Translations under genes and position numbers: made by a program
Notes under the pieces: model-generated
Database searches by the model: none
What the model was told of the DNA's origin: nothing
The model's input: only the letters and a program-made list of their open reading frames with translations
Part shown: one piece after another, positions 2,042-3,203 of the stretch
How the letters are laid out: every line of letters starts with the position of its first letter
Position numbering within the stretch: the first letter of the stretch is position 1
Virus record (IMG/VR): IMGVR_UViG_3300025679_000070
Location: 1 to 24,324 of that record
Reading direction: 5' to 3' (one strand)
DNA length: 24,324 bases
Source: a virus

Positions 2042-2739
2042 ATCTTCAGCAATACATATCCAATCCCCCAGTCGGTGTCAATGGTACAAAGGTTCTATTT
2101 GCAGGACAGTCTGAATCTTTACGTGGGCAATGCGTACAACTCGTAGAAGACTACGCCGTTAAAGTCCTGGGGGTAAAGCTACCTATTATTGGACAAGCTA
2201 AAAACTATTGGACAGCTATTCCAGGCTTCACTCAACAAAGTTCACCTCAAGCTGGCGACATAGCGGTATATAACGGACACGGTATCTATACCGATGGTCA
2301 TATAGCCATTTTTGCAGGTAACGGACAAGTATTTGAGCAGAACGCAGACCCAGACGGCTCGCCAGCTCATCTATTTGCGAGAGCTAACACATATTTACTA
2401 GGATATTTAAGAAAGGATACAGTTATGGAATTATTTAATGAAGGTGACAGACAGAACTTTAACACCTTATTTTACGGTAAGGACAATCAACAGTTCGGTA
2501 GCAGCGTAGGCAAGGACTGGAAAACGGCTTGTACTCTTATCATGCAGCAAGTAACAGCAGATAAACAGCTCCTAGTAAACGCAGGAGATGTAGCTAACCT
2601 TGCCAGCGTTGGTATTACTAATGCTTCACAAGCTAATGGCACTGACTGGAAGAACGCAGTCTATTCAGTAATATTAAAGAACTTACCTGGAGGCACACGC
2701 CCAACACTGCTAGTTCCTGGCGAATACTTGGTACAATAG
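2038..2739 (+). CDS. Endolysin: CHAP amidase/peptidase with duplicated C-terminal module
   Basis: Residues ~20-125 form a CHAP domain: the catalytic Cys is in RGQCVQLVEDYA (C32), the His in TDGHIAIFAG (H88), and the third polar position in VFEQN (E100/N102). The SPQAGDIAVYNG segment is also typical. CHAP enzymes cut peptidoglycan amide or peptide bonds. There is no signal peptide, so export should depend on a holin, and two holin-like genes follow. The C-terminal ~100 residues hold two related units, NEGDRQN...GKDWKTA (134-164) and NAGDVAN...GTDWKNA (181-207), which may bind the cell wall. A strong internal start lies at the domain junction (see 2412-2739). The main start overlaps the upstream micro-ORF stop. 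The CHAP call is firm; the binding role of the repeats is inferred. Confidence 0.88.
   Translation: MNLQQYISNPPVGVNGTKVLFAGQSESLRGQCVQLVEDYAVKVLGVKLPIIGQAKNYWTAIPGFTQQSSPQAGDIAVYNGHGIYTDGHIAIFAGNGQVFEQNADPDGSPAHLFARANTYLLGYLRKDTVMELFNEGDRQNFNTLFYGKDNQQFGSSVGKDWKTACTLIMQQVTADKQLLVNAGDVANLASVGITNASQANGTDWKNAVYSVILKNLPGGTRPTLLVPGEYLVQ
2412..2739 (+). other. Probable internal translation start yielding the endolysin C-terminal domain alone
   Basis: Inside the endolysin gene, AAAGGA (2412-2417) lies 7 bases before an in-frame ATG at 2425 (Met130). This is a better SD/start pair than the one at 2038. It sits exactly between the CHAP domain and the duplicated C-terminal units, so it would make a separate 104-residue product from 2425 to 2739. 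Some Gram-positive phage endolysins (Enterococcus phage Lys170 is a known case) use such a start to build complexes of one full-length chain with several binding domains. Confidence 0.55.
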
Positions 2740-2769: not shown

Positions 2770-2934
2770 ATGAGTTTATTAAGAATAGCATTTGCAATAG
2801 TAATCGGTGTGCTTGTAACGGCATTGCTGGAATGGCTGGCAACATCTGTACCACGCAGCATAGACGTTTTACTAGGTATCGTAGCAGCCTTTATAGCCTA
2901 CAGTAGTTATCCAAAAATAAGGGGAGAAGTATGA
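2770..2934 (+). CDS. 54-residue two-helix membrane protein, holin candidate
   Basis: A short ORF encodes two hydrophobic helices (about residues 5-24 and 33-45) joined by a short polar turn (SVPRSID), with a charged end (PKIRGEV). A small two-helix membrane protein directly after an endolysin is the classic shape of a holin or antiholin, which permeabilises the cytoplasmic membrane and times lysis. It has an excellent SD (AAGGAG) and its own extended -10. Its stop overlaps the next ATG by four bases (ATGA at 2931-2934). The sequence itself is not recognised as a named holin family, so the call rests on size, topology and position. Confidence 0.65.
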   Translation: MSLLRIAFAIVIGVLVTALLEWLATSVPRSIDVLLGIVAAFIAYSSYPKIRGEV

Positions 2935-3203
2935 CCAAGAACCAACAACTAATCGAGAAAGTTATCGTTACTTTTTTTGAAGGTGTTATAGCTTATCTTA
3001 CTATCAATCAAACAAACTTATCAGGTGATGCTAAGACTGTAGCTATAGGCGCAACTGCCTTCGGCCTGTCAGCAGTCTATAACTTACTCAGGCAATCAAC
3101 ACCACCTATCGCTAGTTCACCAACGGTAGTAGCTGCACCAGAAGTACCGCTCGTAGTGGCTGAAGCTCTAGGAGCTCCCGCGGTTACCCCTCCAGTAGTT
3201 TAG
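2931..3203 (+). CDS. Holin-like membrane protein with Pro/Val-rich tail
   Basis: The 90-residue protein has a first hydrophobic helix after a short polar N-terminus (VIVTFFEGVIAYLTI, about 12-26). A second follows after a polar loop with LSGDAK, in VAIGATAFGLSAVYNLLRQ (about 37-55). The rest is a Pro/Val/Ala-rich low-complexity tail. The AxxAFGLSAVYNLLRQ stretch resembles small phage holins of Gram-positive phages. With the 54-residue gene just upstream it could form a holin/antiholin pair. Translation is coupled through ATGA. It is the last plus-strand gene before the convergent junction with the fibre gene. Function is inferred from topology and position. Confidence 0.6.
   Translation: MTKNQQLIEKVIVTFFEGVIAYLTINQTNLSGDAKTVAIGATAFGLSAVYNLLRQSTPPIASSPTVVAAPEVPLVVAEALGAPAVTPPVV

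Follow-up and report, generated by a model that had tools for sequence, protein, structure and literature searches.

A conserved candidate internal start at the domain boundary of CHAP endolysins from probable Saccharibacteria phages

The endolysin gene of an uncultured phage probably yields two proteins from one reading frame, the full-length enzyme and a short chain corresponding to its C-terminal domain, with the short chains joining the full-length enzyme in what is likely to be a multimer. The gene lies in a window of 24,324 bases, which is the entire viral record. The full-length CHAP endolysin (25.2 kDa) would be translated from the ATG at 2038, probably coupled to the preceding short ORF, and the 11.3-kDa C-terminal domain from the ATG at 2425 of the same mRNA, via a strong Shine–Dalgarno sequence (SD) of its own and probably in larger amounts. 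Most likely the free C-terminal domains would assemble with the C-terminal domain of the full-length chain, so that one catalytic head carries multiple units for wall binding or anchoring, an arrangement known from LysIME-EF1 and Lys170. The analysis establishes the signal, its location and its retention in divergent lysins; initiation at the internal start, and the excess, binding role and multimerisation of the short product, are what we infer as most likely. This reading would extend the two-polypeptide endolysin strategy to uncultured phages probably infecting Saccharibacteria.

The endolysin gene and its internal start

The endolysin gene (2038–2739, + strand) was read from the sequence as an ORF of 233 aa and characterised with Pfam and by fold comparison with PDB structures. 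Residues 30–100 match the CHAP family PF05257 (E 2.3e-7) with a score of 31.7 bits, above the curated cut-off of 26, and the best fold matches of the endolysin model include CHAP structures. The Pfam match, an alignment of 14 lysins and an AlphaFold2 (AF2) model built from 14 lysins delimit a catalytic domain of residues 1–126 (2038–2415, + strand), in which Cys32 (2131–2133), His88 (2299–2301) and Asn102 (2341–2343) occupy invariant columns of the alignment and are the predicted catalytic residues. Two further genes of the + strand lie directly 3' of the endolysin gene and have homologues that adjoin lysins in related phages. The first encodes a small lysis-cassette membrane protein of 54 aa (2770–2934), with a homologue adjoining the GH25 lysin of L031; the second is a holin-like gene (2931–3203), with a homologue beside the lysin of L037 and a weak match to Phage_holin_3_3 (E 0.004) that falls below the Pfam cut-off. 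Domain, catalytic residues and place in the lysis cassette together identify the predicted product of 2038–2739 as a CHAP endolysin. Used directly as a query, the lysin returned no close relatives, and a scan of the genome collection for it gave no match; tRNA and Rfam searches of the window were likewise without a match.

The endolysin start overlaps, in an ATGA, the stop codon of a 28-aa ORF (1955–2041, + strand), which itself overlaps the stop of the preceding gene in a TAATG. Because the main start and the stop of this ORF overlap, translation of the full-length protein is probably coupled, and the 28-aa ORF is a probable translational coupler for the weak main start of the endolysin.

Inside the gene, AGAAAGGA (2410–2417, + strand, codons 125–127) pairs without mismatch to the canonical 16S rRNA 3' end, with a predicted duplex energy of -10.1 kcal/mol versus -2.1 kcal/mol at the main start. 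A spacer of 7 bases (2418–2424) separates it from an in-frame ATG (Met130, 2425–2427, + strand), around which local RNA structure, as computed, is scant. The initial annotation had pointed to AAAGGA with a 7-base spacing before Met130 and had ranked this SD above that of the main start; both statements are correct, AAAGGA being positions 2412–2417 within AGAAAGGA. The second product, for which a size of ~11 kDa had been estimated, is predicted from the ORF as a C-terminal domain of 104 aa (2425–2739, + strand) with a computed mass of 11.3 kDa.

The AF2 model places the final strand of the CHAP fold at residues 120–126, and its confidence drops from residue 130. Since the SD occupies codons 125–127, the starts of the second ORF and of the C-terminal domain coincide. 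The site had been annotated as lying between the CHAP domain and the C-terminal part, and the model agrees, putting it directly after the last CHAP strand.

Relation to known two-polypeptide endolysins

Lys170, CTP1L, CD27L, CS74L and LysP7951 are two-polypeptide endolysins with in-frame internal starts (PMC9430671, PMC4777826), and in a survey of 635 non-redundant lysins from Gram-positive phages about half were predicted to have an internal start (PMC9430671). The window gene shares with these five enzymes an arrangement of two in-frame ORFs that end at a common stop, the short product being the C-terminal domain. By fold, the solved structure nearest to the window model is LysIME-EF1 (6ist, E 4.3e-4), the endolysin of Enterococcus faecalis phage IME-EF1, in which an internal AAGGAGA/ATG makes extra binding domains and one full-length chain associates with three short chains (PMC7098653). 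LysIME-EF1 too has a CHAP head, and its AAGGAGA SD and ATG (Met168) also lie between the CHAP and binding domains and give extra binding domains of ~8 kDa. The LysIME-EF1 homologue of phage EF_CW, which served as a positive control in the same scan, gave -10.4 kcal/mol at its boundary ATG. Because the best solved-structure match is LysIME-EF1, we consider a two-polypeptide endolysin that multiplies its wall-binding units the most likely interpretation. The earlier assignment to the known class of internal-start endolysins is supported by this match and by the conservation described below; the known strategy stands, and the "Gram-positive phage" to which it was ascribed should probably read "Saccharibacteria phage".

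The window endolysin also departs from these precedents. The host of LysIME-EF1 is Enterococcus. The window C-terminal domain is unrelated to that of LysIME-EF1 in sequence: no C-terminal homology between them was detected, and when the lysin profile is matched to PDB sequences the match spans the CHAP part only. The 1:3 assembly is proven for LysIME-EF1, whereas multimerisation of the window enzyme is a prediction. In phage 2638A and mycobacteriophage Ms6 the internal start is also located within the endolysin gene, but it falls between two catalytic domains, and their short products retain a catalytic domain whereas that of the window has none (PMC9430671). Internal-start endolysins are already known; what is new is the group of phages, which probably infect Saccharibacteria, and the unclassified C-terminal domains. 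The published survey was confined to phages of cultured Gram-positive bacteria and of mycobacteria (PMC9430671), whereas the present group is uncultured and its C-terminal domains belong to no family.

It is also conceivable, although rather unlikely, that the internal start is real and that the short product acts alone, for instance by saturating wall sites, by delaying lysis or by reducing losses to debris. An internal start need not lead to a heteromultimer, as LysJavan488 shows, lysis timing in mycobacteriophage Ms6 depends on both products (PMC9430671), and self-association of the window's C-terminal domain is without direct support. However, the layout of one catalytic and one binding domain, as found here, is associated with heteromultimers in six characterised cases (PMC9430671), and the short products of relatives have predicted coiled coils, both of which favour assembly of the short chains with the full-length enzyme.

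Conservation of the boundary signal

Taken alone, the single site of the window is suggestive, short of decisive. Among 1,798 internal in-frame ATGs in 377 genes of the related phage group, 60 (3.3%) are preceded by a duplex of -8 kcal/mol or stronger and 8 (0.44%) reach -10.1 kcal/mol, three of these eight being lysin boundary starts. When the window gene alone was resampled synonymously with its protein fixed, 11% of the versions paired as strongly (P = 0.11), and a caveat on the signal is that G/E/K-rich linkers favour SD-like codons. Because this single-gene resampling is weak, the case rests on conservation.

The terminase route led to 22 related phage loci, one of which (G001) encodes a CHAP lysin with ~34% identity overall and a different C-terminus. 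In the G001 lysin, TTAAGGAGATAGAT-ATG stands straight after the common LGYLR, its first two bases coming from the preceding codon context ATTAAGGAG. Synteny gave only one usable homologue because most terminase relatives have unrelated lysins (glucosaminidase-LysM, GH25 and an SH3-like one).

By successive profile searches we gathered 25 short lysins, chosen on protein similarity and blind to the signal. A boundary site was defined as an SD of -8 kcal/mol or stronger with an ATG or GTG, located from the CHAP end to the next domain; the counts of 25 and 19 include the window lysin itself. The initial annotation had proposed conservation of the internal SD and start in homologues as a check, and both are kept at the boundary in 19 of the 25 lysins. 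Among those with a homologous CHAP domain the site is present in 13/19 (the window lysin, L037, L058, L062, L063, L066, L069, L073, L075, L076, L096, and, with GTG, L097 and L098), and among those with an unrelated N-terminal domain in 6/6 (L082 and L085–L089). The six CHAP lysins in which it is absent are L061, L067, L070, L065, L068 and L074; L061 and L070 are LysM-tailed, and L067 has a proline-rich linker and a membrane segment. L068 (L068:3929–4678), a CHAP lysin whose tail is coiled-coil-like and whose boundary Met lacks an SD, is a true exception to the pattern and a natural control.

The linker codons at the site vary (KDTV, KEID, NGGT, EGGD, KGET, GGQP), as do the C-termini. Since the residues of the linker are rarely the same from one lysin to the next, it is the nucleotide signal, not the peptide, that is maintained, and the internal start stays while both flanking domains change. 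Such a site occurs in 2.9% of random 30-codon stretches in other genes; against this background, 13/19 corresponds to a nominal P of ~2e-16, which is overstated because the lysins, being related, are not independent samples. When the two SDs were compared in 16 genes, the internal one was the stronger in every gene, which predicts that the short product is made in excess.

These data bear directly on whether the signal arose by chance, with a Lys-Asp linker in front of a Met that resembles a start and no translation beginning there. The 11% of synonymous versions and 3.3% of internal ATGs cited above lend this explanation some footing, but recurrence of the same boundary signal in 19/25 relatives despite differing linkers and C-termini, with the nominal P just given, makes it very improbable.

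Exchanged halves, C-terminal domains and probable host

L085, L086 and L087 are natural recombinants: an N-terminal half is common to L085 and L086, and a C-terminal half to L086 and L087. DNA identity between L085 and L087 is 43–62% upstream, rises to 93% from the start codon to +30 and is 57–70% just downstream; the SD is common to both, and the sequences converge again beyond about +240. The start signal of these recombinant lysins is a conserved island between exchanged halves.

The least probable explanation of the site is that it is now functionless, left behind when modules were exchanged or when a once separate binding-domain gene fused with the CHAP gene and brought its own ribosome site: halves are swapped at the joint in L085/L086/L087 and lysins turn over in the phage group, but lysins with only 21–34% identity have kept both SD and start codon, and the internal SD is still stronger than the main SD, which speaks against a relic because an unselected one would decay, and a two-gene version, with separate head and tail genes, was sought in Arthrobacter and Lactococcus phages matching the N-terminal domain and none was seen. 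A functional start that yields two chains remains the preferred reading. We regard it as plausible, somewhat short of probable, that the SD, start codon and C-terminal domain form one exchangeable cassette in phages infecting Saccharibacteria and neighbouring groups, with the internal start as the point at which recombination joins different catalytic heads to different tails, helical or coiled-coil, and each new combination being two-polypeptide, multimeric and suited to the host wall. The phages L037, L039, L041, L051 and L031, with terminases 52–87% identical to that of the window, replace their lysins wholesale (CHAP, an SH3-like one, glucosaminidase-LysM twice, and GH25).

The C-terminal domain of the window lysin contains two GxDWK motifs (GKDWK from residue 158 and GTDWK from residue 201). 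AF2 models it as mostly helical with low confidence, and searches assigned it to no Pfam family and detected no homologue. A relationship to the L069-type domain, based on VGK-W motifs matched by eye, was not borne out (hhalign probability 3%), and the likeness of the L069-type domain to DUF4214 is weak (Foldseek prob 0.93, E 0.23). The L069-type C-termini are each predicted as a compact unit of helices followed by a long helix that scores as a coiled coil and by a C-terminal helix; this layout, seen in relatives and not in the window's domain, would fit oligomerisation of the short product. In many of the lysins of L062, L066, L069, L073, L075, L076, L082, L085–L089, L096 and L098, a coiled-coil-like stretch is followed by a short, often cationic, amphipathic-looking end helix (e.g. 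GFFNGLFDKIKSFISKG), for which contact with the membrane or envelope is a possible role. A T-x-L-x-PG-x-Y-x-V end motif is found in the window lysin (2692–2736), L037 and L058, whose C-terminal domains are otherwise different.

The bacterial genome collection yielded a single terminase relative, 45% identical, whose contig is part of a Candidatus Saccharibacteria MAG, and the same lysin type occurs on phage contigs from three further genomes of that class, G053, G068 and G291. These matches suggest Saccharibacteria as the host of the window's phage group, with mis-binning possible since they are phage contigs in genome bins. Saccharibacteria are ultra-small epibionts with a little-known wall, and to our knowledge almost no lytic enzymes are known for them; the new C-terminal domains may bind the walls of these bacteria. 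Endolysin starts are not discussed in the open-access papers retrieved on Patescibacteria and their phages.

The Arthrobacter and Lactococcus phage matches mentioned above are single fused genes, one of which has a boundary SD and ATG. This lysin (L111:1498–2301, Arthrobacter phage MargaretKali) has an N-terminal domain of the second type, with GAAGGAGACCTCACC-ATG at the boundary (Met145, -9.7 kcal/mol), and, coming from an isolated phage, is a convenient laboratory model.
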